34,520 nt of DNA, taken from contig JAJDNY010000074.1 of assembly GCA_022340425.1 (NCBI GenBank), positions 1 to 34,520 on the forward strand. The letters run 5' to 3'. The first letter of the stretch is position 1. Each line of letters begins with the position of its first letter. Shown one piece after another: positions 1,496 through 34,184 of the stretch. The translations under genes and the position numbers were made by a program. This DNA is from Desulfobacteraceae bacterium (lineage in GTDB: Bacteria; Desulfobacterota; Desulfobacteria; Desulfobacterales; JAABRJ01). Under the pieces are notes generated by a model, which saw only the letters and a program-made list of their open reading frames with translations, had not been told where the DNA came from and made no database searches.

Positions 1496-2095
1496 ATGAA
1501 ACGCGTCGTCGTTCACCCCGAACGCTGCGTCGGCTGCATGCAGTGCATGCTGGCCTGCGCAACGGCCCACTCCCAAAGCGGGACCCTTTTTGCGGCCGTG
1601 CGCGAAAGTCCCCCGCCCCGGCCGAGGGTCCACGTGGGGGCCGGCCTCTACGGCGAGGGCTTCCCCAACCGCTGCCGCCACTGCGACCCGGCCCCCTGCC
1701 AGCTGGCCTGCCTGCCCGGCGCGATCTCGCGCGACCGCGCCAGCGGCACGGTCCTGATCGACCCCGAGCGCTGCATCAACTGCGCCTCCTGCGCCATGGC
1801 ATGCCCCTTCGGGGTGATCCGCTACCACCCGGAGCACCACGCGCCGCTGGGCAAAACCGTGGCCGTCAAGTGCGACAATTGCCTGGCGCGGCTTCGCCAG
1901 GGAGGGATTCCGGCCTGCGTCGAGGTCTGTAAAACCGGCGCGCTGACCTTTGAAGAGGCCGACGCGGCGCTCAAGCGCCAGACCGACGCGGTGGCCCGCA
2001 GCGTTTCGCGCACCGCCGAGGAGGTTCAGCCGGCCCCCGGATTTGCCCTGCTCAATGCCCAGCGCAAGGCCCAACTGGCCCTTAAAAACCCATGA
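1496..2095 (+). CDS. cooF: CooF-type four-cluster ferredoxin, electron acceptor of CO dehydrogenase
   Basis: A 199-residue polyferredoxin that should carry electrons between CooS and the upstream flavoprotein. Four cysteine groups are visible: C11-x2-C-x2-C-x3-C (CVGCMQC...), CRHCDPAPC...C, CINCASCAMACP, and CDNC...CVEVC, matching four [4Fe-4S] sites of the CooF/HycB/DmsB-like family. There is no Tat or Sec signal, so it is cytoplasmic. A strong AAAGGAGG (1484-1490 region) lies just before the ATG. The stop is 16 bp before cooS. The C-terminal ~40 residues after the last cluster are Ala/Arg-rich and carry no recognised motif. The order flavoprotein-cooF-cooS supports a CO:NAD(P)+ route rather than an energy-converting hydrogenase, because no cooMKLXUH genes are present in the window. 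Confidence 0.93.
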   Translation: MKRVVVHPERCVGCMQCMLACATAHSQSGTLFAAVRESPPPRPRVHVGAGLYGEGFPNRCRHCDPAPCQLACLPGAISRDRASGTVLIDPERCINCASCAMACPFGVIRYHPEHHAPLGKTVAVKCDNCLARLRQGGIPACVEVCKTGALTFEEADAALKRQTDAVARSVSRTAEEVQPAPGFALLNAQRKAQLALKNP

Positions 2096-2111
2096 ACCCA
2101 TGGAGGCCGAG

Positions 2112-3992
2112 ATGAAACACCCCTTTGGAGAAAATACCATCACTGAAGATGGTCGCCTGATGCTCAAAAAAATGGAAAAGGACCAGGTGGCGACGGTCTG
2201 GGAGCGTTTCAACGCCCAGCAGCCCCAGTGCGGCTTCTGCGAGATGGGGCTGAGCTGCCGGGTCTGCAACATGGGGCCCTGCCGGGTGGACCCCTTCGGG
2301 GAAGGCCCCCAGCAGGGGGTCTGCGGCGCGGATGCCGACATCATCGTGGCGCGCAACCTCGGCCGCATGATCGCGGCCGGGGCGGCGGCGCACTCGGACC
2401 ACGGCCGCGACCTGGTGGAGGTGCTGGCCTCCGTGGCCGAGGGGCGGGCGCCGGGCTACACCGTCAGCGATGATCCCAAGCTGCGGCGGGTGGCCGCCGA
2501 GTACGGCGTCGCCACCGGGGACCGGGCGGTTGCCGAAATCGCCGCCGACCTGGCCCGCGCCATGCAAGAGGACTACGGCACCCGCCGCAAGGCCCTTACC
2601 CTGATCAATCGGGCGCCCCGCAAACGCCGCGAGCGCTGGGCCCAGCTGGGCATCACCCCCCGGGGAATCGACCGCGAAACCTCGGAGATGATGCACCGCA
2701 CCCACATGGGGGTCGACAACGGCTGGCAGAGCCTGCTGCTGCACGGCCTGCGCAACGCCCTCTCCGACGGCTGGGGCGGCTCGATGATCGCCACCGAGGT
2801 CTCGGACATCCTCTTCGGTACCCCCCGGGTGACCCCCAACAGCGTCAACATAGGGGTCCTGAAGGCCGACCAGGTCAACATCGTGGTTCATGGCCACAAC
2901 CCGGTGGTATCCGAAATGCTTCTGCAGGCCTGCCAGTCGCCGGAACTCACGGAGCTGGCGCTGGCCCGCGGCGCCCAGGGGATCAACCTGGCCGGGCTGT
3001 GCTGCACGGGCAACGAACTGCTCATGCGCCACGGCATTCCCATGGCCGGCAACCACCTGATGACCGAGCTGGTGATCGCCACCGGCGCGGTGGAGATGAT
3101 GCTGGTGGACTACCAGTGCATCATGCCCTCCCTGGGGGCGGTCGCCGCCTGCTACCACACCCGGATGATCAGCACCAGCGACAAGGCGCGCTTCCCGGGC
3201 ATGACCCACCGCGAATTCCACCCGGACAACGCCCGGGAGCTGGCCCGGACCCTGGTTGCCGAGGCCATCGAGAACTTCAGCCGCCGGGGCGAGGTTTATA
3301 TCCCGGTGGCGCCGGCCCCGTCCCTGGGCGGTTTTTCGGTGGAAACCATCATCGAGGCCCTCGGCGGCTCGCCCGAGCCGCTGATCGCGGCCCTGAAAAG
3401 CGGCCAGATCCGCGGGGCGGTGGGCGTGGTGGGCTGCAACAACCCCAAGATCCGCCACGACTACGGACATGTGACCCTCACCCGCCGTCTGATCGAAAAC
3501 GACATCCTGGTGGTGGACACCGGCTGCGCCGCCATCGCCAACGCCAAGGCGGGCTTCAAGGTGGCCGAGGCGGCCCGCCTGGCGGGACCCGGTCTGAAGG
3601 AGGTCTGCGGGGCGCTGGGCATCCCCCCGGTGCTGCACATGGGCAGCTGCGTCGACAACGTGCGCATCCTGGTGCTGGCCGCGGCCCTGGCCGACGCCCT
3701 GGGGACCGACATCAGCGATTTGCCCATCGCCGGTGCGGCGCCGGAGTGGTACTCGGAAAAGGCGGTCTCCATCGGCGCCTACTTCGTGGCCTCGGGGGTC
3801 ACCACGGTCCTCGGCCCCATGCCGCCCATCACGGGCAGCATGAACGTGGTCAATCTGCTGACCGAAGGGCTGGAAGATCTCCTGGGGGCCACCTTCGCCG
3901 TGGAACCCGACCCCGAAAAGGCCGCCCTCCTGATCCGGCGGCACATCGAAGACCGCCGGGCCAAGCTGGGACTGGCGGCGGTTCAGGTCTAA
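2112..3992 (+). CDS. cooS: Anaerobic Ni-Fe carbon monoxide dehydrogenase catalytic subunit
   Basis: 626 residues, the usual CooS length. It oxidises CO to CO2 at a Ni-4Fe-4S C-cluster. C-cluster ligands are visible: H260 in VHGHNP, C297/C298 in GLCCTG, C336 in DYQCIMP, C442 in VGCNNP, C472 in DTGCAA, C513 in MGSCVDN. The acid-base Lys is K550 in YSEKAVS. The N-terminus has C40-x2-C43, then C49, C52, C57 and C71 (B-cluster). The D-cluster pair is spaced CX2C instead of the CX7C of Carboxydothermus CODH-II; S48 sits where the second D-cluster Cys would be. The start at 2112 is favoured by GGAGG at 2102-2106; an in-frame ATG at 2100 is possible. No acetyl-CoA synthase gene is adjacent, so this is a monofunctional CODH. 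A CooC Ni-insertase is encoded 13 kb away. Confidence 0.97.
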   Translation: MKHPFGENTITEDGRLMLKKMEKDQVATVWERFNAQQPQCGFCEMGLSCRVCNMGPCRVDPFGEGPQQGVCGADADIIVARNLGRMIAAGAAAHSDHGRDLVEVLASVAEGRAPGYTVSDDPKLRRVAAEYGVATGDRAVAEIAADLARAMQEDYGTRRKALTLINRAPRKRRERWAQLGITPRGIDRETSEMMHRTHMGVDNGWQSLLLHGLRNALSDGWGGSMIATEVSDILFGTPRVTPNSVNIGVLKADQVNIVVHGHNPVVSEMLLQACQSPELTELALARGAQGINLAGLCCTGNELLMRHGIPMAGNHLMTELVIATGAVEMMLVDYQCIMPSLGAVAACYHTRMISTSDKARFPGMTHREFHPDNARELARTLVAEAIENFSRRGEVYIPVAPAPSLGGFSVETIIEALGGSPEPLIAALKSGQIRGAVGVVGCNNPKIRHDYGHVTLTRRLIENDILVVDTGCAAIANAKAGFKVAEAARLAGPGLKEVCGALGIPPVLHMGSCVDNVRILVLAAALADALGTDISDLPIAGAAPEWYSEKAVSIGAYFVASGVTTVLGPMPPITGSMNVVNLLTEGLEDLLGATFAVEPDPEKAALLIRRHIEDRRAKLGLAAVQV

Positions 3993-4107: not shown

Positions 4108-5004
4108 ATGAAACTCGCCACCGCCGCCTTCGACGACCGCGAAGAGGCCTGCATCCTGACGCCCCGCGGGCTCATCCCGATCGCGGCCGTCAACCGCCGC
4201 TGCAGCGCCCACTGGCCCACCGACCTGTTCCATCTGCTGGCAACGGAAGCCCTGGAAGGGCTGCAGGCCTGGTACACCGGCACCGGGCAAAATACCCTGG
4301 AGGTCCTGCCCGAAGCGGAAATCGTTCCGACCGCGGCGGTGCGCTGGCGGCCCCCTTACCACCACCCCCGCAAGATCTGGGGCATCGGCCTCAACTACCG
4401 CGCGCATGCCGCCGACCTTTCCGAAAGCGCGCCCCAGGGCATCCCGGCCAGCTTCATGAAGCCCGACACGGCCCTGATCGGCCCCGGCGATGCAATCGAG
4501 ATCCCCACCCTCTCCGAACGCACCACGGCCGAAGCCGAACTCGGGGTGATCATCGGCCGCCGGTGCCGCCACGTGGCGCCCGGCGACTGGCTGAAGGTGG
4601 TGGCCGGCTTCACCCCGGTGATCGACATGACGGCCGAGGACATCCTGCGCCAAAACCCCCGTTACCTGACCCTGGCCAAGAGTTTCGACACCTTTTTCAG
4701 CTTCGGGCCGGTGGTCCTGACCCCCGATGAGGTCCCGGACGTCAGCCGCCTGGAGGTCGCCACGGTGGTAAACGGGGGGGTGCACGCCGCCAACGCGGTG
4801 GCCAACATGACCTTTGCACCGGATTTTCTGGTGGCCTTCCACTCCCGCGTCATGACGCTCCTGCCCGGGGACATCCTCTCCACCGGGACCCCGGGCGCGG
4901 CCATGATCCGCGACGGTGATCTGGTGGAAGCCCGCATCACGGGGTTCCCGGCGCTGGCCAACCCGGTGCGAGACCTCAAAGCGGCGCCGCACCCCGGCAC
5001 GTGA
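4108..5004 (+). CDS. Fumarylacetoacetate hydrolase (FAH) family protein
   Basis: 298 residues. The C-terminal two-thirds is an FAH fold: metal ligands E142 and E144 in AEAELG and D173 in VIDMTAED, plus GIGLNYRAHA and the STGTPGAA loop near the end, which are hallmarks of this family. Members hydrolyse C-C bonds, decarboxylate 2-oxo acids or isomerise 2-hydroxydienoates (for example aromatic or homoprotocatechuate degradation); the substrate here cannot be assigned. The N-terminal ~80 residues are the small accessory domain. The start ATG follows GAGGAG with good spacing. It is on the same strand as cooS, separated by a 115-bp gap with a strong hairpin, so it may be a separate transcription unit. 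A 56-bp gap precedes the next gene. Confidence 0.88.
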   Translation: MKLATAAFDDREEACILTPRGLIPIAAVNRRCSAHWPTDLFHLLATEALEGLQAWYTGTGQNTLEVLPEAEIVPTAAVRWRPPYHHPRKIWGIGLNYRAHAADLSESAPQGIPASFMKPDTALIGPGDAIEIPTLSERTTAEAELGVIIGRRCRHVAPGDWLKVVAGFTPVIDMTAEDILRQNPRYLTLAKSFDTFFSFGPVVLTPDEVPDVSRLEVATVVNGGVHAANAVANMTFAPDFLVAFHSRVMTLLPGDILSTGTPGAAMIRDGDLVEARITGFPALANPVRDLKAAPHPGT

Positions 5005-5060
5005 CGGGCCGACTTTGCAGCCGAGGCCGCCGACGATGCCCAACCCCCCACGAGGTGAAC

Positions 5061-6833
5061 ATGGCCGCCCCCCACGCCCCCTCCGTTATCAAAGGCAAGC
5101 TGCGCGCCCTGCGCCGCCGGCGGCGGGAGATCCTGGCGCTGCCGCCCGAAAAGGCGCTCGCCGCGATCATCGATAGCCCGGAGGCCCTGCCCCTGGTCCA
5201 TTCGCTCCCGGAGCAGGACTTCTATTTTTTGGTGCAGGAGATCGGCCCCGAAGACGCCCTGCCGCTGCTCAGGATGGCCACCGGCCGGCAGTGGGAGTTT
5301 TTGCTGGACCGGGAAACCTGGCGCGGCGACCGCTGGGGTGACGCGCCCCTCACCCGCTGGCTGGGGCTCCTGTTGCAGGCCGACCCCAAGCGGGTGGTGG
5401 ACTGGGTGCTGGCTGATAAAACCGAGGAGGTCAAACTCTACCTGTTCCGCAACATCGAGTTGCGGGTGCGGGAACACGACCAGGACCCCTCGGATCTGGG
5501 CGAGGGCTTCGAGACCTTCGACGACGTCTTCTACTTCCGCTTTCGCAAGCCGCCGGCCGATGTGGAGGCGCCAGCGGCCCCGCAAGCGGAGCGCGAGGCC
5601 GTCATCACCCGTCTGCTGGCGCTCCTGGCGGACCGCGACCTCACCGTATTAAACGGCCTGCTGCTGGAAGCGGCCGGCATCATCGCCGCCGAAGTCGAGG
5701 ACGAAGCCTACCGCCTGCGCAACGTGCGCCTGGCCGAAAGCGGCTTTCTGCCCCTGGAGGAAGCCGTGGCGATCTACCAGCCGCTGGCGCCGGAGGACCT
5801 GCAACGCTTCGCCCGCCGAACGGCCGGCAGAAACGCGCGACAGGATTCGCCACTTCCGGTGCCCCTGTCCAGCGCAGGGCTTCTAGGGACCGAGAGTCTA
5901 TTCGAGCGCGCCCTGGGCCGGGTCAGCGCCGAGGCCGAGCACGACCGCCTGCAGCAAGAGTTTGCGGCCCTCTGCAACCGCCTGATCGCCGCCGATCAGA
6001 GCCCCGTGCGGCAGCGCGAGGAGCTGCGGGCGGTGGTCCGCAAGGCCTGCGGCTACCTCAGCATCGGGCTTGAGCAACTGCTGGGCCCCTTAGCCCGGGA
6101 GGATCACGCGGCCGCCGCCGGAGCAGCCGATCTGCTGCAGCGCCATTTCCTGGAACCCCTTTTCCGGGTGGGCTACGGGCAGGCGGCGGCGCTCAAGCGC
6201 CGGACGCAGCGCTGGCAGCGGGAGAGCTGGTTCGGAGAGCGCGGGCTGCCCCTGGGGTTCTGGGGCGAGGAGGGGCTGGGGCTCGTGGGCGGGCTGCTGC
6301 TCAAACGCCCCCTTTACTTCGAGGGCTACCGCAGGGGGCATTTATACCGGGATTTCGCCGCCATGGGCGAGATCCACGAAACCCGGCGCGAGTTGGACGA
6401 CCTGATTTGGCTGGACCAGCTGCTCTCGCTTTTGAACCCGCCGCTGCCGCGGGGCGAGCGGCGCTTTCTGACCTACAAGAACCTGCTGCTGACCCTCTGG
6501 GCCTGCAGCTGCCTGGGCCTGCCGGCCGCGGAGAAGTTCCCGCCGTTGGCGCTGGCCGATTTCAGGCAATTCTGCGAGGGCCTCTTCACCCCCCGCGCGC
6601 CGACTGCGGCCCCCGGTCCCCGGCGCATCCCAACCGAGCGCCGGACGGCCTTTCTGGACTGGCTGGCGGCGGGCAGCGGGCTGCGCCCGGACGAGATCTC
6701 GACCCGCCTGGGAAGCCGCCTGGAGGCGCTTTTCAGCGAAATCGAAGCGGAGCTGGGCCCGGTGGCGCCGTCGGACCTCGACCCGCGCTTCATTGGGCTC
6801 TTCCTGCTGGCCGGCGCTAAACCGCCGTCTTGA
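5061..6833 (+). CDS. DUF6178-like protein of unknown function
   Basis: 590 residues, no signal peptide and no clear membrane segment; mostly helical, rich in Leu, Arg and Glu. The N-terminal ~150 residues resemble, from memory, the DUF6178 family found mainly in Desulfobacterota (ILALPPEKAL..., a conserved FYFLVQEIGPEDALPLL-like stretch, and R-Q-W-E-F-L-L-D). I see no catalytic motif, metal-binding cluster or nucleotide loop. Start chosen at ATG 5061, preceded by GAGGTGA; the frame stays open 60 bp further upstream. It follows the FAH gene on the same strand at 56 bp and is followed by a small U-tailed hairpin and a palindromic repeat, so it probably closes the transcription unit. The function is unknown and context offers only a loose link to CO and aromatic-acid metabolism. 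Confidence 0.8.
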   Translation: MAAPHAPSVIKGKLRALRRRRREILALPPEKALAAIIDSPEALPLVHSLPEQDFYFLVQEIGPEDALPLLRMATGRQWEFLLDRETWRGDRWGDAPLTRWLGLLLQADPKRVVDWVLADKTEEVKLYLFRNIELRVREHDQDPSDLGEGFETFDDVFYFRFRKPPADVEAPAAPQAEREAVITRLLALLADRDLTVLNGLLLEAAGIIAAEVEDEAYRLRNVRLAESGFLPLEEAVAIYQPLAPEDLQRFARRTAGRNARQDSPLPVPLSSAGLLGTESLFERALGRVSAEAEHDRLQQEFAALCNRLIAADQSPVRQREELRAVVRKACGYLSIGLEQLLGPLAREDHAAAAGAADLLQRHFLEPLFRVGYGQAAALKRRTQRWQRESWFGERGLPLGFWGEEGLGLVGGLLLKRPLYFEGYRRGHLYRDFAAMGEIHETRRELDDLIWLDQLLSLLNPPLPRGERRFLTYKNLLLTLWACSCLGLPAAEKFPPLALADFRQFCEGLFTPRAPTAAPGPRRIPTERRTAFLDWLAAGSGLRPDEISTRLGSRLEALFSEIEAELGPVAPSDLDPRFIGLFLLAGAKPPS

Positions 6834-10639: not shown

Positions 10640-12217
10640 TCAGCCGCAGGGCCAGGGTTTTACCGTCGGAAAGCGAGCGGGGTCGGTGTGCGGCAGGAAT
10701 TTGGCCGCACTGAAGCGGTTCATGAACTCCTGATTGACGTTGAGCTCCAGATAGGTGACGGCATCCCGGATGGCGTCGATCTCCCCGATCCGGCCGGCGT
10801 CGCAAAGCGCCAGGGTGGCCCCGCCCAGGGAGCTGTTGCCCAGGCTGCGATAGGCGCCCAGCGGCAGGTCGGGCATCATCCCGATGGTGATCGCCGAGCG
10901 GGGGTCGATGAACGCCCCGAAGGTGCCGGCGACGTAAATGGCGTCGAGCTCCTCGAAACACAGCCCGACCGTGGCGGTGAGGGTCCGCAGGATGGTGTAC
11001 ATGGCCGCCTTGGAGCGCACCAGGCTATCGAGATCGGCCTGGCTGATGGTCAGGTCCCGGCCGCTCTCCGACGCCGCGGCCGGCACCAGCACCAGGTGGT
11101 TGAGGCCGTCCAGCTCGCGGCAGCGCTCGCCGCAGACCTCGGGGCGCAACTTGCCGCGAATGTCGATCAGGCCGGCCAGAAAGAGCTGGGCGGCGAGATC
11201 GATGACCCCGGAGCCGCAGATCCCCCGCGGCGGCAGGTCATCGATGGTGTGAATCTCGAACGCGCCGCTGGCCGGGTCGATGCGCACCCGGTCGATCACC
11301 CCGGGGCCGGCCATCATCCCGATGGCGCTCACCCCCCCTTCCAGGGCCGGCCCGGCGGCCCCAGCGCAGCCCATCAGCCAGTGGCGGTTGCCCACGACCA
11401 CTTCGGCGTTGGTGCCGACATCCACCAGGATGGCGGTCTCCTCCCGGCGGTGCAGCCCGGCGAAGAGAATCCCGGCGATCAGGTCCCCCCCGAAGTAGCT
11501 GCCGATGTTGGGAAACACCAGGACCCGGCCGGCGGGGTTGAGCCTCAGCCCCAGCGCGGCGGCCGGTAGCACCCCGGGCCGGTTGACCGCCGGGGTGTAG
11601 GGCTCGCGGATGACCCAGCGCGCCGGCAGCCCCATGAAGAGATGGGTCATGGCGGTGTTGCCGGCCACCGCCGCCAGGTAGACGTCCTCGGCCTCAAGGC
11701 CGCCGGCGCGCGCCAGCTCGCCGATTTCGGCGTTCAGGCCGTCGACGATCAGGCTCCGCAGGGATTCCCGGCCGCTGTCGCTTTCGGCCTGCTGGATGCG
11801 CACCAGGACGTCCGGCCCAATGGCGATCTGGGGGTTGTCGAAAGCGCGCTCGGCCAGCGTCGCCCCGGTCTCGAGGTCCACCAGGCGCAGCACCACCCGG
11901 GTGGTGCCCAAGTCCACCGCCAGTCCTGCCAGGGGTGCGGGGTCCTCCGGCGCCGTGACCGCCACCAGCTGCCCGACGGGGCCGTCCTGAAAGAGCAGGC
12001 AGCGCGCCCGATAGCCCCAGCGCCGCAGCCGCTCGGGAAGCGTCCGCAACAGGGGCAGGCCGATATCCAGGCGCGAAACCCCCAACCGCGCTTTCAGTAC
12101 AGCCGCCAGGCGGTCGGCATCGGCGGTGTTGTCCTTGAGGCTGGGGGGCGCCAGGGTCACCTCCTGGACCCAGCGCCGGGGGGGGCTCGATTCGGGGGTA
12201 TCGACGGCAGCGCTCAT
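10640..12217 (-). CDS. RACo-like ASKHA ATPase (corrinoid protein reductive activator family), lacking the ferredoxin domain
   Basis: 525 residues. RACo proteins use ATP to re-reduce inactive Co(II) corrinoid proteins. The family's middle domain is recognisable early (LAPPSLKDNTADADRL) and the ASKHA core begins near residue 98 with VDLGTTRVVLRLVD. Later blocks are AVAGNTAMTHLFMG, VFPNIGSYFGGDLIAG, LVDVGTNAEVVVG, GCAGAAGPALEGG, GICGSGVIDL and AGTFGAFIDP. Canonical RACo starts with a ~90-residue [2Fe-2S] domain; here the first 97 residues contain only one Cys (C73), so that domain is absent. Thus it needs an external electron donor or has a different role. It is the last gene of a minus-strand run that also includes cooC, 47 bp after a Sir2 gene. 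The ribosome-binding site is weak. Confidence 0.88.
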   Translation of the reverse strand: MSAAVDTPESSPPRRWVQEVTLAPPSLKDNTADADRLAAVLKARLGVSRLDIGLPLLRTLPERLRRWGYRARCLLFQDGPVGQLVAVTAPEDPAPLAGLAVDLGTTRVVLRLVDLETGATLAERAFDNPQIAIGPDVLVRIQQAESDSGRESLRSLIVDGLNAEIGELARAGGLEAEDVYLAAVAGNTAMTHLFMGLPARWVIREPYTPAVNRPGVLPAAALGLRLNPAGRVLVFPNIGSYFGGDLIAGILFAGLHRREETAILVDVGTNAEVVVGNRHWLMGCAGAAGPALEGGVSAIGMMAGPGVIDRVRIDPASGAFEIHTIDDLPPRGICGSGVIDLAAQLFLAGLIDIRGKLRPEVCGERCRELDGLNHLVLVPAAASESGRDLTISQADLDSLVRSKAAMYTILRTLTATVGLCFEELDAIYVAGTFGAFIDPRSAITIGMMPDLPLGAYRSLGNSSLGGATLALCDAGRIGEIDAIRDAVTYLELNVNQEFMNRFSAAKFLPHTDPARFPTVKPWPCG

Positions 12218-12264: not shown

Positions 12265-13005
12265 TCAGGCGGCCAGCTGCGCCAGGATGCGGTTCATGAT
12301 CTCGCCGGCGGCCCCCAGAATGGTGTAATCACTGATGCGGCCGGTAAGCGGTGTGGGCTCGGCGTTGATCTCGATTACGGTGGCACCGGCCTCCTTGGCG
12401 AAGACCGGTACGTAGGCCGCCGGGTGCACGCTGGCCGAAGTCCCGAGCACCAGCATGACGTCGCACTCCCGGGCGCTTTGACGCGAGCGCCAGAGCATCT
12501 CGGCGGGGATGTCCTCGCCGAAGAAAACGCATTCCGGCCGGAAAATGCCCCCGCAGAAACAGCGCGGCGGCATCCGGTCCAGGCAGATCTCGGCGGTGGT
12601 TTTGCGTTCGCCGCAGGCCAGACAGCGGTGGCGGGCGAAGCTGCCGTGGAATTCGACCACATCGCGGCTGCCGGCTTTCTGGTGCAGGCCGTCGACGTTC
12701 TGGGTGATGACCGTCCGCACCAGCCCCATCTCCTCCAGCCGCACCAGCGCGCGGTGGGCGTCGTTGGGCAGGGCCGCATCGATGACGCGCTTCATCTCGC
12801 GCAGCAGCACCTCCCAGACCTTGGCCGGGTCGGCCATGAAGGCCTCGATGGTGGCGTACTCCATGGGGTCGATCTTCTCCCAGACCCCTCCCGGACCCCG
12901 AAAGGGGGGGATCCCGCTTTCCACCGAAACGCCGGCGCCGGTCAACGCGGCCACCCGCCGCGCGCTCTTCAGGTCGGCAACCGCGCGCTGAATCAACTCC
13001 TGCAT
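12265..13005 (-). CDS. Sir2-family NAD-dependent protein deacylase
   Basis: 246 residues, a compact bacterial sirtuin. NAD-binding GAGVSVESGIPPFRG (residues 23-37), TQNVDGLHQKAG (101-112), catalytic H120 in VEFHGS, zinc cysteines C128-x2-C131 and C149-x-C151, and GTSASVHPAA for the second NAD loop. It removes acetyl or related acyl groups from lysines with NAD consumption. I see no clear Y-x2-R acyl-specificity pair of the desuccinylase type after residue 60, so deacetylation is the simplest guess. GAGGTG precedes the start. It lies 18 bp after a metallo-beta-lactamase-fold gene and 47 bp before the RACo-like gene, and shares its strand with a zinc-dependent AcuC-like deacetylase, giving two mechanistically different deacylases in one gene run. 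Confidence 0.93.
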   Translation of the reverse strand: MQELIQRAVADLKSARRVAALTGAGVSVESGIPPFRGPGGVWEKIDPMEYATIEAFMADPAKVWEVLLREMKRVIDAALPNDAHRALVRLEEMGLVRTVITQNVDGLHQKAGSRDVVEFHGSFARHRCLACGERKTTAEICLDRMPPRCFCGGIFRPECVFFGEDIPAEMLWRSRQSARECDVMLVLGTSASVHPAAYVPVFAKEAGATVIEINAEPTPLTGRISDYTILGAAGEIMNRILAQLAA

Positions 13006-16599: not shown

Positions 16600-17352
16600 T
16601 CACGGGAGAAACCTTGCAAAGAGGTCAAAAGCCGCCCGCACCGAGGGGCTGTCTTGGGGCATCTCGATGGTCGGCCGGCCGTTTAAGTCATATTCGTAGA
16701 TGGTTTCGTCCTCGGGGATGGTTCCCAGCAGCTCGGGGCCCTGGGCGGCGGCGATGATGTCCAAAACGGCCTGGGAGGGTGCCGCTTTGGCCTGGTTGAG
16801 CACCAGGTAGCTCTTGCCCACCCCGATGTTGAGGTCCCGCGCCAGCTTGTCGATCCGCAGGGCGGCCTGCAGGCCGCGACGCGAGGTGTCCGAGACGATC
16901 AGCAGGACATCGACGTTCTTGGTAGTCAGCCGGCTGATATGCTCCATGCCGGCCTCGTTGTCCATTACGATAAAGGGGTAATTGTCCGTCAGCCGTTCGA
17001 GAAAATTGGTCAGCAAGGAGTTGGCGGCGCAGTAACAGCCAGCGCCCTCCGGCTGCCCCATGACGATCAGGTCGTACCCGTCGCGCTCGACGATGGCTTC
17101 CTCCATGCGCATGGAGATGAAGATGTCTTTGGTCATCCCATCGGGCACCTTGCCTTTTTTCATGTCCTCGCGGGCGTCGCCGAGGGTGTCGGCGACCGCG
17201 ACGCCGAGCACCTCGTTGAGGTTCGCGTTGCAGTCCGCATCCACCGCCAGGACCGGGGTTTTTCCATGCTGCACCATATATTTGATTAGGATGCCGGCAA
17301 GCGTCGTCTTTCCCGTGCCGCCTTTTCCGGCCAGGGCTATTGTAAAGGCCAT
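16600..17352 (-). CDS. cooC: CooC-type nickel-insertion ATPase for CO dehydrogenase
   Basis: 250 residues, a MinD/ParA-type P-loop ATPase. The deviant Walker A is GKGGTGKTT (residues 9-17) with the signature lysine, and the metal-binding C106-x-C108 is in GAGCYC, as in CooC and AcsF proteins that bind Ni at a dimer interface. DADCNANL gives switch I and MDNEAGMEHISR the switch II region. It matures the Ni C-cluster of CooS or CODH/ACS. It is on the opposite strand 13 kb from cooS and heads the minus-strand gene run that ends with the RACo-like gene, so it may serve an ACS/CODH complex encoded elsewhere instead of, or as well as, this cooS. Start MAFTIALAGK; AAGGA lies 12-13 bases upstream. 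Confidence 0.94.
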   Translation of the reverse strand: MAFTIALAGKGGTGKTTLAGILIKYMVQHGKTPVLAVDADCNANLNEVLGVAVADTLGDAREDMKKGKVPDGMTKDIFISMRMEEAIVERDGYDLIVMGQPEGAGCYCAANSLLTNFLERLTDNYPFIVMDNEAGMEHISRLTTKNVDVLLIVSDTSRRGLQAALRIDKLARDLNIGVGKSYLVLNQAKAAPSQAVLDIIAAAQGPELLGTIPEDETIYEYDLNGRPTIEMPQDSPSVRAAFDLFARFLP

Positions 17353-20800: not shown

Positions 20801-20845
20801 CCCCGCCGGCCGCACGGCCGCAGAAGCCCGCAGCGGAGGTTGCCC

Positions 20846-22732
20846 ATGAACGGCCCGTCGGAAAACCAGTGGCGCAGTCGGATCGTTCCGCCCGAGGCGG
20901 TCCTGGAGCGCATCGAACCCGGGATGAGCATCTTCCTGGGCACCGGCGTGGCCGAGCCGCGCACCCTGGTCAAGCACCTCACCACCTCGGAGGCCCGCAA
21001 CCTCCAGGACCTGGAATTGATCCAGCTCGTCAGCCTGGGGGAGGCCGTCTCACTGCAGCAGCAGCGCTCCCAGAACTATCGTCTGAAGACCTTTTTTTCG
21101 GGCTGGATCGCCAGCGAGGCCATTACCGCCGGGCAGGTGGACCTGATCCCCAGCCGCTTCTGCCGCATTCCCCAGCTGATCGCCTCCGGCTGGCTTTCCA
21201 TCGATGTCGCCTTCGTGCAGGTGACGCCGCCCAACGAGGCCGGCTACTGCAGCCTGGGGGTGGCGGTGGACGTCGCCCGCCAGGCCATGGAACAGGCCTC
21301 CCTGGTGGTCGGCGAAATCAACCCCGCCATCCCGGTCACCATGGGGGACACCTTTGTGCCGGTGGCGGATTTCGATCTGCTGGTGGCTGCCACCGAACCG
21401 CCCATCTATTTCCAGCGCTGGCCGGTGGACGACGTTTACGACCGCCTGGGGGCCAACATCGCCTCGGTGATCGAAAACGGCAGCTGTCTGGCCTTCTCCA
21501 TCGGCATGCTCTACGATGCCCTGGCCCGCCACCTCACCGGCAAACGCCACCTGGGGATCCACTCCTCCTTTTTTACCGACGCCCTGATGGATCTAGTCAA
21601 AAGCGGCGCGGTCACCAACCGCCAGAAGGAGGTCTTCCGCGGCAAGTCGCTGGTTTCCTACGCCTTCGGCACCCCGGAGCTGCTGGCCTGGCTGGACCGC
21701 AACCCGCTGGTGGAGTTCCAGAGCATCGAAAAGGTCTTCGACCCCCTCCAGATCGGCAACAACCCGCGCTTTATGGCCATCCTGCCGGCGCGGCGGGTGG
21801 ACCTCTCGGGCCGCATCGCGCTGCACTTCGGCAAGGGTAACATCGCCGGGCCCGCCGAGGCCATCAACTTCGCCAACGGTGCGGACCTATCGACCGGCGG
21901 ACGCACGATCTTCGCCCTGCCCAGCCGCAACCTCAAGGGCAGCCCCAACATCAGGGTCTCGGTGGCGGCCCTGCCCAACCAGTTCGGGCTGCCGGAATCG
22001 GTTTCCATGCTGGTCACCGAATACGGGGTGGCGCACCTCACCGGCCGCACTGTGCGCGAGCGCGCCCAGGCCCTGATCGACATCGCCCACCCCGACGACC
22101 GCGCCAACCTCGTGGCCCAGGCCAAGGCCGCTCACATCCTCTATCCCGACCAGATCTTCCTGCCCCAGAGCGCCCATCTCTACCCTTCGGAGATCGAGAC
22201 CACCCATACCTTCAAAAACGGCGTTCAGATCCGCTTTCGCGCCATCCGCCCCTCGGACGAGGAGGCCATGCGCCGCCTGTTTTATCGTTTCTCCGACAAA
22301 GCGGTCTACTACCGCTATTTCACCCCCATCAAGACCATGCCGCACGCTCGGATGCAGGCCTATGTCAACGTGGACTACAGTGACACGCTGTCCATCGTGG
22401 GGCTGGCCGGGGAGTCCGGCGAGGGCCGCATCATCGCCGAGGCCCGCTTCGTCCGCGACCTTCAGGGCGCCAAGGCCGACGTGGCCTTTGTGGTCGATGA
22501 AGCCTACCAGGGCATGGGCATCGGCACCTTCCTTTACCGCATGCTGATCCGCCTGGCCCGCCAGCGGGGGATCCAGGGCTTTCACGCCGACGTGCTCTCC
22601 TCCAACCGCAATATGCTCAAGGTCTTCGAAAAGGGGGGGCTGCCGGTCAAGGCCAGTTTGGAGGACGGGATCTACTCCCTGTGGATGCCCTTCGGGCGCA
22701 CGGACGACGGCGGCGCCCTCAATCGCCCCTGA
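20846..22732 (+). CDS. Acetyl-CoA hydrolase/transferase-like domain fused to a GNAT acetyltransferase
   Basis: 628 residues. Residues 1 to about 445 are the class-I CoA-transferase (acetyl-CoA hydrolase) fold: TPPNEAGYCSLG, ENGSCLAFSIGMLYDAL, SLVSYAFGTPELL and the C-terminal MLVTEYGVAHLTGRTVRERA. Residues about 460-615 are GNAT: FRAIRPSDEEAMRRLFYRFS, then AFVVDEAYQGMGIGTFLYRML with the acetyl-CoA loop Q-G-M-G-I-G. In related CoA-transferases the catalytic Glu follows G-I-H-[ST]; here the stretch is LGIHSSFFTDA and the Glu position is S241. So the first domain may bind but not process acyl-CoA. GGAGG at 20835-20839 sets the ATG (a TTG at 20840 is less likely). The gene overlaps the convergent acyltransferase by 14 bp. 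Such Pat-like fusions may acetylate metabolic enzymes. Confidence 0.9.
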   Translation: MNGPSENQWRSRIVPPEAVLERIEPGMSIFLGTGVAEPRTLVKHLTTSEARNLQDLELIQLVSLGEAVSLQQQRSQNYRLKTFFSGWIASEAITAGQVDLIPSRFCRIPQLIASGWLSIDVAFVQVTPPNEAGYCSLGVAVDVARQAMEQASLVVGEINPAIPVTMGDTFVPVADFDLLVAATEPPIYFQRWPVDDVYDRLGANIASVIENGSCLAFSIGMLYDALARHLTGKRHLGIHSSFFTDALMDLVKSGAVTNRQKEVFRGKSLVSYAFGTPELLAWLDRNPLVEFQSIEKVFDPLQIGNNPRFMAILPARRVDLSGRIALHFGKGNIAGPAEAINFANGADLSTGGRTIFALPSRNLKGSPNIRVSVAALPNQFGLPESVSMLVTEYGVAHLTGRTVRERAQALIDIAHPDDRANLVAQAKAAHILYPDQIFLPQSAHLYPSEIETTHTFKNGVQIRFRAIRPSDEEAMRRLFYRFSDKAVYYRYFTPIKTMPHARMQAYVNVDYSDTLSIVGLAGESGEGRIIAEARFVRDLQGAKADVAFVVDEAYQGMGIGTFLYRMLIRLARQRGIQGFHADVLSSNRNMLKVFEKGGLPVKASLEDGIYSLWMPFGRTDDGGALNRP

Positions 22733-31340: not shown

Positions 31341-31415
31341 CGGAAATCGCCCCGGAAGTCAGCTTGCGCCGTTTTGCGCGGCTTTTTACCCCCCCTTCAA
31401 GGAGAAGTTGCTGTC

Positions 31416-34184
31416 ATGAGCGAACCCAACACGATCACGATCAATGGGAATGCGTTCAGCTTCGAACCCGGCGAAACCATTTTGGACGTCGCCAAGCGCC
31501 AGAGCATCGACATCCCGACCCTCTGCCACCTCAAAGGGGCGACACCCACCGGGGTCTGCCGGATCTGCGTGGTGGAAGTCGCGGGGGCCGACAAACTGCT
31601 GCCGGCCTGTGCCACCCGGGCCACCGACGGCATGCAGGTGCAGACCGAGTCCCCCCAGGTGGTCGCCGCCCGGCGCTTGATTCTGCAGATGATGCTGGCC
31701 TCCGGCAACCACAACTGCGCCGTGAGGGGCTCCGACGGTCAGGACTGGACGCGCTTCCAAATGGGCGTTCACCGGGACGATCAGAGCGGCGAGCTCTGCC
31801 CGGTGTGGGGCGACTGCCGCCTGCAGGACCTGGCCTACCGCTACCAGGTCGACGGCCAGGCCTTCCCGCGCAACCCCTCGCCCTACCCCATGGAAACCGT
31901 CAACCCCTTTATCGTCCGGGATTTCGCCCGCTGCATCCAATGCGGCCGATGCGTCCAGGCCTGCAACGAGATTCAGGTCAACAACGCCATCAATTTCGGC
32001 TACAAAGGCGCCTTCACCAAGATCGTGGCGGCCGGCGACCGGCCCCTGCGGGATTCCGATTGCGTCTTCTGCGGTGAGTGCGTCCAGGTTTGCCCGGTGG
32101 GCGCCCTGGTGGAAAAGGATGTGCGCTACCGGGTGCGCCAGTGGGAGACCGAGACGGTGCGCACCACCTGCAGCTACTGCGGCGTCGGCTGCCAGCTGAA
32201 CCTGCACGTCAAGGACAACCGCGTGGTCAAGGTCAGCGGCGTCGAGGGTGCGGCCCCCAATTATGGCAGCCTGTGCGTCAAGGGCCGCTTCGGCTACGAC
32301 TTCGTCAACTCACCCGAACGCCTCAAGACCCCGCTGATCAAGGAAAACGGCCAATTCCGCGAGGCCTCCTGGGATGAAGCGCTGGATCTGGTGGCCGCCC
32401 GCCTGGGGAAGATCAAAACCGACCATGGCCCCGACAGCCTCGGGGTCCTGACCTCCGCGCGGGTCACCAACGAGGAGAACTATCTGGCCAGCAAGTTCAC
32501 CCGAGCGGTGCTTCAAACAAACAACATCGACCACTGCGCCCGTCTCTGACATTCCTCCACCGTGGCCGGTCTGGCCGCAGCTTTCGGCAGTGGCGCCATG
32601 ACAAACACCATCGGCTGTATGGAAAAAGCCGATCTCATCCTGGTCACCGGGTCCAATACCACCGAAAATCACCCGGTGATCTCGGCTTACATCAAACGCG
32701 CGGTGTCCTTCAAAGGCGCCAAACTGATCGTGGTGGACCCCCGCCGCGTCAAGATCGCCAGCTTCGCCCACCAGTGGCTGCGGCCCAACCTGGGCACCGA
32801 CGTCGCCTGGATAAACGGCATGATGCATGTCATCATCAACGAGGAGCGCTACGCCAGGGAGTACGTCGAAAGCCGCACGGTAGGCTTCGACGAGCTCAAG
32901 AAGGCCGTCGCCGACTACACCCCCGAGCGGGTCGAGGAGATCACCGGCATCCCGGCCAAACAGCTGATCGATGCGGCCCGGATGTACGCCGGGGCCAAGG
33001 CCGGCAGCATCGTCTACTGCATGGGCATCACCCAGCACACCACCGGCACCGACAACGTCAAATCCCTGGCCAACCTGGCCATGCTGTGCGGCTTTGTGGG
33101 CATCCCCGGCGGCGGGGTCAACCCCCTGCGGGGTCAGAACAACGTCCAGGGGGCCTGCGACATGGGCGGTCTGCCCGACGTCTACAGCGGCTACCAGAAA
33201 GTCGCCGACCCCCAGGCGCGGGCGCGCATGGCGGCCGCCTGGGGAGTGAGCGCGCTGCCAGACAAACCCGGGTTGAAGGTCACCGAAATGATCCCCAAGG
33301 TTCACAGCGGGGAAATGAAGGCTCTCTACATCATCGGGGAAAACCCGCTGGTCTCGGATCCGGACCTCAACCACGCCCAGAAGAGCTTCGAGCACCTGAA
33401 TTTTCTCGTGGTCCAGGACATCTTCCTGACCGAGACCGCCCGCCTGGCCGACGTGGTCCTGCCGGCGGCCTGCTTCGCCGAGAAGGACGGCACCTTCGCC
33501 AACACCGAGCGGCGCGTTCAGCGGGTGCGCAAGGCTGTCGCGGCACCCGGCCAGGCGCGCCAGGACTGGGAGATCATCTGTGATTTGGCCAGCCGCATGG
33601 GCTACCCCATGGCCTACGAGAGCAGCGAGGCCGTCATGGCCGAAATCGCCTCCGTGACGCCCTCCTACGCCGGCATCAGCTACCCGCGCATCCAGCAGGA
33701 GGGCCTCCACTGGCCGTGCCCGAACCCCGAGCACCCGGGCACCCCGATCCTGCACATCGGCCAGTTCTCCTCGGGCAAGGGGGTTTTCCACGGCCTTGCC
33801 TACATCCCGCCGGCCGAGGCGGTGGACGCGGACTACCCCCTCTACCTGACCACTGGGCGGGTGCTCTACCATTACCACACCGGGACCATGACGATGAAAT
33901 CCGAAGGTCTCATGGACCGGGCGCCGGAGAGTTTCGTTGAGATCGCCCGGCAGGACGCCAGCGCCCACGGGTTGGAGGAGGGGGCCATGGTCACCATCGC
34001 CTCGCGCCGGGGCAGCATCGAGGCCCGGGTCAAGATCTCGGATAAAGCGGTGCCGGGAACGATCTTTATCCCCTTCCACTATGCCCAGGCCGCGGCCAAC
34101 AAGCTCACCAACGCGGCTCTGGACCCCATCTCCGGGATTCCCGAGTTCAAGGTCTGCGCGGTCAAGCTCTCCAAAGCCGCGTAG
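31416..34184 (+). CDS. fdhA: Selenocysteine-containing formate dehydrogenase, alpha subunit with NuoG-like N-terminus
   Basis: 922 residues, read through an in-frame TGA at 32547-32549 as selenocysteine 378 (HCAR-L-U-H-SS, the FdhF active-site context). Both flanking frames are the same phase. Domains: [2Fe-2S] ferredoxin with C37, C48, C51, C65; a degenerate NuoG-type H/C cluster (H99, C101, C128, C134) with a ~26-residue spacer between C101 and C128; two [4Fe-4S] sites (C173, C176, C179, C183 and C216, C219, C222, C226); the FdhF [4Fe-4S] C252, C255, C259, C287; then the molybdopterin/tungstopterin fold and the C-terminal MGD-binding domain. It interconverts formate and CO2; the chain of clusters suggests a soluble enzyme with ferredoxin or NAD(P) partner subunits, not encoded here. 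No Tat signal. ATG follows AAGGAG. A strong terminator follows. Confidence 0.95.
32547..32578 (+). promoter_or_regulatory. Bacterial SECIS hairpin directing UGA recoding
   Basis: After TGA (32547-32549) come 12 bases, then GTGGCC (32562-32567), loop GGTCT (32568-32572), GGCCGC (32573-32578): a six-pair stem with one U-G pair. The loop GGUCU and the 18-base distance from UGA to the loop equal those of the E. coli fdhF SECIS as I recall it, and a U occupies the position of its functional bulged U. It should bind SelB. Confidence 0.85.

Follow-up and report, generated by a model that had tools for sequence, protein, structure and literature searches.

Among described protein acyltransferases, the closest counterparts of the protein considered here are Salmonella Pat, E. 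coli PatZ and S. lividans PatA (type I/II), which likewise join a dead acyl-CoA-enzyme domain to a related GNAT domain. In Pat and PatZ the inactive domain is an NDP-forming acyl-CoA synthetase that binds acetyl-CoA and is tied to oligomerisation and to the activity of the GNAT domain (available text of PMC8556138). The same text covers the mycobacterial cAMP-Pat Rv0998 (type III; 4ava/4avb/4avc), in which an N-terminal ligand domain of 300-400 aa similarly precedes a Pat-type GNAT domain. Type III ligand domains bind cAMP, NADP or amino acids, and a CoA-transferase fold is absent from the set described in that text.

For the CoA-transferase fold, catalysis has been described in AarC. Its external oxyanion hole consists of the Gly388 amide and CoA, components said to be strictly conserved across the superfamily, and Gly388 N interacts with the carboxylate of the catalytic Glu294. 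Contact between CoA and Glu294 has been proposed to prop the site open; the AarC-E294A variant has no activity but still shuts completely around CoA or a non-hydrolysable analogue of acetyl-CoA. Lys408 touches the CoA 3'-phosphate, which in the same paper is given little influence on affinity (all from the available text of PMC4876117).

The window, a stretch of 34,520 nucleotides from a Desulfobacteraceae bacterium (contig JAJDNY010000074.1, assembly GCA_022340425.1), encodes a fusion protein in which the domain preceding a Pat-type GNAT is of the class I CoA-transferase type, in place of the synthetase of Pat/PatZ (Table 1). Among the papers listed by searches of the open-access PMC literature, no description of a CoA-transferase/GNAT fusion or of a CoA-transferase pseudoenzyme was found. 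The fused architecture itself is probably already known to automatic annotation. The original prediction for this locus was that the CoA-transferase domain had lost its catalytic glutamate and may have become an acyl-CoA sensor controlling the attached acetyltransferase. The explanation favoured here, with somewhat better than even confidence and on grounds of sequence and analogy, is that the fusion is a lysine acyltransferase whose dead CoA-transferase domain acts as a ligand-binding regulator of the GNAT domain, as in Pat/PatZ. The protein is accordingly classed with the Pat-type acyltransferases that a pseudoenzyme regulates, its regulatory domain being new.

Table 1. Features of the fusion gene and of the deacylase gene in the window
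Feature	Position	Strand	Details	Basis
CoA-transferase-like/GNAT fusion gene	20846..22732	+	628 aa, ATG start	ORF, Pfam
Likely Shine-Dalgarno GGAGG	20835..20839	+	6 bases 5' of ATG	Read from sequence
Class I CoA-transferase-like (putative pseudoenzyme) domain	20870..22135	+	About residues 9-430	Pfam, PDB sequences, fold match
Motif LGIHSSFF	21551..21574	+	Residues 236-243	Translation and PDB alignment
Ser241 codon	21566..21568	+	Catalytic Glu position (AbfT Glu238; AarC Glu294)	Alignments
Glu338 codon	21857..21859	+	AbfT Gly336 position (equated with Gly388 of the AarC external oxyanion hole)	Alignments
Arg361-Asn362 codons	21926..21931	+	Clade-specific change in old SxAK loop	Alignment
Pat-type GNAT acetyltransferase domain	22211..22681	+	About residues 456-612	Pfam, phmmer, fold match
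Asp545 codon	22478..22480	+	Position of Glu in AEVAF of solved Pat GNATs	Alignment
GNAT P-loop QGMGIG	22508..22525	+	Residues 555-560 (Q/R-x-x-G-x-G/A)	Translation
SIR2-family (CobB-like) deacylase gene	12268..13005	-	Same window, about 8 kb from fusion, non-adjacent	

Domain organisation and predicted fold

Both parts of the acetyl-CoA hydrolase/transferase fold passed the Pfam cut-offs in the N-terminal part of the fusion, with AcetylCoA_hydro at 2.6e-17 (residues 23-182) and AcetylCoA_hyd_C at 1.1e-36 (275-426), while the C-terminal part matched Acetyltransf_1 at 1.9e-09 (residues 518-596). The NCBIfam models for butyryl-CoA:acetate CoA-transferase and acetyltransferase Pat scored 138.4 and 94.4 bits, far under their cut-offs of 674.8 and 460, which places the fusion outside the curated equivalogs among those models. 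The closest PDB relatives of the N-terminal part were 4-hydroxybutyrate CoA-transferases (phmmer), and those of the C-terminal part were S. lividans PatA, mycobacterial Pat and E. coli PatZ.

An AlphaFold2 model of the fusion, built from a 46-row alignment (pLDDT 87.2, pTM 0.84), matched 2oas_A with a Z of 49.3 (2.2 A over 416 residues, 33% identity). Residues 4-439 matched 3gk7_A, the 4-hydroxybutyrate CoA-transferase AbfT of Clostridium aminobutyricum, with a Z of 47.4 (2.5 A over 428 residues, 29% identity). These fold matches, together with the Pfam matches, bear out the original claim that the CoA-transferase fold motifs are kept. Compared with AbfT, however, the window protein lacks Glu238 and Gly336, has Gln213 and Gly215 replaced, and carries the C-terminal GNAT domain as an addition. 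The modelled GNAT domain lies close to Pat, with a Z of 24.6 to the SlPatA GNAT 4u5y_A (1.4 A over 164 residues), a Z of 23.6 to PatZ 9it0 over 176 residues, and a phmmer match of 2.2e-20 to 4nxy.

Loss of the catalytic glutamate

In a phmmer comparison with PDB sequences, LGIHSSFF paired without gaps with LGIHSEMI of 3gk7. It paired likewise with the motif of each of four further solved 4-hydroxybutyrate CoA-transferases among the alignments listed (LGVHTEMI, LGIHTEMF in two of them, and LGVHTELF). Ser241 stood opposite Glu238, the residue that forms the acylglutamyl anhydride and the glutamyl-CoA thioester, and occupied the catalytic-Glu column in an alignment of 221 rows that included the window protein and AbfT. 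The replacement named in the original prediction is therefore exact. An assembly search found six full-length fusions in the genome of the window, with Ser (window), Pro, Pro, Gln, Gln and Gln at this position. PF02550 matched seven proteins of the assembly, these six and one standalone protein that, by eye, shows YSEV at the motif, so Glu loss and fusion coincide in this genome (6/6).

Relatives came from three sources: the 58 genomes nearest the window, counting its own, of which 55 matched at 0.001; a set of 247 genomes from the phylum, of which 111 matched at 1e-60; and contigs of named genomes, where 80 of at least 578 confirmed loci were kept. They were picked by likeness to the window protein, so the counts given here are not population frequencies and may include near-copies. 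Across the 208 fused rows the catalytic column held P 72, E 56, Q 39, L 11, D 9, Y 5, F 5, H 4, S 2, A 2 and one each of T, G and I. The 13 rows without GNAT held E 10, P 2 and Q 1; the three P/Q rows sit inside Glu-less clades and may be truncations.

Phylogenetic trees, reconstructed by FastTree with the catalytic motif omitted, placed the fusions and the three GNAT-less P/Q rows in one clade (support 96). Within it, the window protein belonged to a clade of 104 tips (support 99), none of which had Glu at the catalytic column, an absence too consistent to be chance. Conservation of Ser among fusion homologues, a check suggested with the original prediction, was not observed; Ser occurred in two of these tips and Pro in 74, the others being L 11, Y 5, F 4, H 3, A 2 and one each of T, G and I. 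Two further clades were largely Glu-less, namely Q1 (n=24; Gln 23, His 1) and Q2 (n=21; Gln 17, Glu 3, Phe 1). A quick IQ-TREE reconstruction of 74 chosen rows supported the P rows at 99, Q1 and Q2 at 100 each and the standalones at 97. Since Glu is found in standalones and in fusions of many phyla, it is most simply ancestral. From the trees, the window's P clade, Q1 and Q2 each seemed likely to have lost Glu independently, but this was not adopted, as AU tests rejected neither P+Q1 (p 0.491) nor P+Q2 (p 0.737) as one clade. Constraining P+Q2 even improved on the free tree by 9.97 log units, indicating that the 74-row IQ-TREE is not the best tree.

Glu-bearing CoA-transferase/GNAT fusions occur in many phyla, share the architecture of the window protein and fall in one clade with it. 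They differ in having kept Gly215, Glu238 and Gly336 together in 53/53 cases, as have 9/9 standalones, against 0/104 members of the window clade; Glu was the grouping criterion for the two Glu-bearing sets and the glycines were not. With the catalytic residues kept throughout, the Glu-bearing fusions are probably still enzymes.

Asp was observed at the catalytic-Glu position in nine fusions (L221, L224, L246, L256, L259, L263, L265, L081 and L085). A Glu-to-Asp change in a related enzyme is reported to give a hydrolase, and these nine fusions may be thioesterases.

Changes in the former active site

AarC lies outside the alignment, and its Gly388 was equated with AbfT Gly336 by motif reading (GG-x-x-D-F, with AarC Phe392 as ruler). 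The corresponding column contained Gly in 66/66 Glu-bearing rows. The window protein has Glu338 there, and Gly was absent from all 104 tips of its clade, in which E (59), Q (18), N (11) and D (3) made up 91/104 and the rest were others; an acid was thus present in 62/104 and absent in 42/104. Q2 kept Gly336 in 21/21 members, with the preceding Gly changed to T, S or A. The full Gly-Glu-Gly set was found in 0/21, so the three Glu-bearing Q2 members lack Gly215.

The changes extended beyond this column. Most members of the window clade (95/104) had A, S or G at the AbfT Gln213 position, and just 10/104 retained Gly215. The loop S-T-A-K (SxAK) had become S-R-N-[R/L], with Arg361 in 100/104, Asn362 in 96/104 and Asn368 in 103/104, and further residues were fixed in the old pocket loops, namely Pro336 (94/104) and Phe/Tyr223 (102/104). 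By these alignments, the pocket was remodelled and then re-fixed in a new form. With Glu238 and Gly336 absent from 104/104 and Gln213 and Gly215 mostly lost, the loss of CoA-transferase catalysis put forward in the original prediction is strongly supported at the sequence level.

A dead domain need not bind a metabolite; it could instead be a scaffold that supports oligomerisation or brings protein substrates to the GNAT domain. Class I CoA-transferases are oligomeric, the pocket residues have changed, and no conserved operon partner was found around the window-clade loci; at 54 loci with 137 neighbour ORFs, of which 129 were scanned (six very long and two others were omitted), the commonest Pfam family occurred in 7/129. 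However, a pure scaffold would have no need of new fixed pocket residues, and Arg361, Asn368, Pro336 and Phe/Tyr223 are fixed at the frequencies given above. This explanation is considered unlikely, though it is the strongest of the alternatives.

Less probable again is a rebuilt active site, in which relocation of the acid to the oxyanion-Gly column (Glu338, or Asp in Q1) would yield an acyl-CoA hydrolase or unusual transferase and leave the protein bifunctional. The contact between Gly388 N and Glu294 in AarC implies that an acid at the Gly388 position would fall within the active site, and Glu338 is probably an acid inside the former active site of the window protein. The invariance of Gly336 in Glu-bearing rows, against Asp in 24/24 of Q1 and no Gly in the window clade, also favours such a relocation. 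On the other hand, the clade members without an acid at this column make a Glu338-type acid a poor general replacement nucleophile, though Glu338 might still act as one in the window protein itself, and Gln213 and Gly215 have mostly gone as well. The original prediction presupposed that no other Glu had taken over in the active site; this is qualified by the alignment of Glu338 with the oxyanion Gly, but a clade-wide nucleophile at this position is unlikely.

As a separate observation, the Q1 fusions (L004, L251 and others) pair Glu-to-Gln in 23/24 with the oxyanion Gly-to-Asp change and might hold a relocated acid.

Maintenance of the CoA-transferase domain

Columns conserved at 95% or more comprised 77/422 of the CoA-transferase part in the window clade, compared with 68/420 in the Glu-bearing fusions, which are the more divergent set. 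For the GNAT part the corresponding proportions were 32/157 and 11/156. In 10 close pairs, selected from 30 listed and with one protein shared by two pairs, dN/dS ranged from 0.035 to 0.109 for the CoA-transferase part and from 0.037 to 0.116 for GNAT. Taken with the fold match to solved CoA-transferases, these low values indicate strong purifying selection and a maintained pseudoenzyme, with no decay. That the domain has been kept to serve another purpose, as originally proposed, is likewise supported by the column conservation, the low dN/dS and the precedent of Pat, in which the dead synthetase domain is a sensor of acetyl-CoA (available text of PMC8556138).

Decay of the CoA-transferase domain was rejected on the low dN/dS and the column conservation, and the idea that this half is an unneeded, drifting relic is largely contradicted by the same data and very improbable. 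Some observations do point towards a relic. The median ratio of CoA-transferase to GNAT distance was 1.00 in the window clade and lower in the Glu-bearing fusions (0.81), Q1 (0.75) and Q2 (0.83); the catalytic column is variable (P, L, Y, F, H, S, A, T, G, I); and some matches are frame-split (L173, L178) or, in 12 of those listed from the class survey, contain in-frame stops somewhere in the match. Automatic names would label the fusion as an active hydrolase or transferase and 53 Glu-bearing fusions exist, but an ordinary acetyl-CoA hydrolase/CoA-transferase plus GNAT, with Ser as a sequencing error or harmless substitution, is the least credible explanation, with Glu missing from 104/104 clade tips across many assemblies.

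The GNAT domain and candidate targets

Asp545 faces the Glu of solved Pat GNATs in the alignment, and an acid was found in 102/102 window-clade members with a residue at this position, which we take to be that of the GNAT general base. The strict P-loop, as defined in the available text of PMC8556138, was present in 78/101 members of the clade, including the window protein, and absent in 23/101. From these motifs the GNAT half looks active.

The genome contains two SIR2 genes, one in the window and the other at G000:C134, and one AcsA above the curated cut-off. AMP-forming ligases are usually acetylated at the motif P-x4-G-K, which was found in 8/12 of the AMP-binding_C loci of this genome. 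A candidate writer, candidate erasers and the usual targets therefore coexist in this genome. Two further loci of the same genome (L007 and L008) are large frames ending in a Pat-like GNAT; by eye, they resemble acyl-CoA synthetase/GNAT fusions with an SHTGA motif.

Proposed mechanism

At the level of sequence and predicted fold, the domain has kept the class I fold under constraint, and the nucleophilic Glu, the oxyanion Gly and nearby pocket residues have been lost clade-wide. Acyl-CoA binding by the N-terminal domain, the identity of its ligand, its control of the GNAT domain and the targets are what we infer from this. Under the favoured explanation of a regulated lysine acyltransferase, the dead domain would still bind a CoA-type ligand, its loops closing without chemistry, and its ligand state would be relayed to the GNAT domain. 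As a built-in sensor of this kind, it would probably inform the acetyltransferase of how the cell is fuelled. The GNAT domain would then acylate lysines, most plausibly those of acyl-CoA ligases and other acyl-CoA enzymes, and CobB-like deacylases would undo the modification. The closure of AarC-E294A without activity suggests that removal of the Glu could yield a site shut on its ligand, a plausible first step towards a sensor.

Several observations are counterpoints to this scheme. The change from SxAK to SRN[R/L] alters the old CoA pocket loop in the window clade, and E, Q, N or D in place of the oxyanion Gly could block an acyl-CoA thioester. The distance ratio in the window clade, the lack of a conserved neighbour at the loci scanned, the members without a strict P-loop and the 12 listed matches with in-frame stops also count on this side.

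Distribution and significance

Matches resembling the window clade (E <=1e-200, clade called by score) were found in 80/147 genomes drawn from the class of the window, its own included, and the matches listed, the window itself apart, were 51-70% identical to the window protein. Some named window-clade loci were labelled SAR324 or Proteobacteria in their titles, or Myxococcota by taxonomy. Cultured relatives in which a window-clade protein was found include Desulfospira joergensenii DSM 10085 (L144), Desulfocicer vacuolatum DSM 3385 (L163) and Desulfobacter latus AcRS2 (L171). Plasmid records matched in 136 cases, none of them across at least 80% of the query.

The window-clade family suggests a second origin, from an unrelated CoA enzyme, of the pairing of pseudoenzyme and GNAT seen in Pat. 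Labels of the acetyl-CoA hydrolase/transferase kind probably misname every member of the window clade, which bears on models of acetate and acyl-CoA metabolism. More speculatively, sulfate-reducing and syntrophic bacteria might possess an array of such acyltransferases (six Glu-less paralogues here), in which each retired CoA-transferase would be remodelled to sense its own CoA ester or CoA state, and lysine acylation would thereby follow the acyl-CoA profile of anaerobic degradation; this would be an undescribed type beside types I-V, a possibility held only tentatively. In Syntrophomonas wolfei, acyl-lysine modification tracks acyl-CoA intermediates, and the words GNAT and acyltransferase are absent from the available text of that study, dedicated writers being outside its subject (PMC9676460). 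The window-clade family provides candidate acyl-lysine writers in bacteria of a related lifestyle.

Other genes in the window

On the forward strand, 31374-34181 encodes a formate-dehydrogenase-like molybdopterin oxidoreductase (Pfam) with one in-frame TGA at 32547-32549 (NNIDHCARL*HSSTVAGL). This TGA is most likely a selenocysteine codon, at which ORF callers would split the gene. The window also contains genes for a Prismane/CO-dehydrogenase-family protein (1950-3989, +), a RACo-type protein (10643-12217, -) and a CbiA/NifH-like ATPase (16603-17352, -), which are possibly parts of an acetyl-CoA pathway setting. A further gene (5001-6830, +) encodes a DUF6178 protein (Pfam 5.1e-152), a member of a function-unassigned family.
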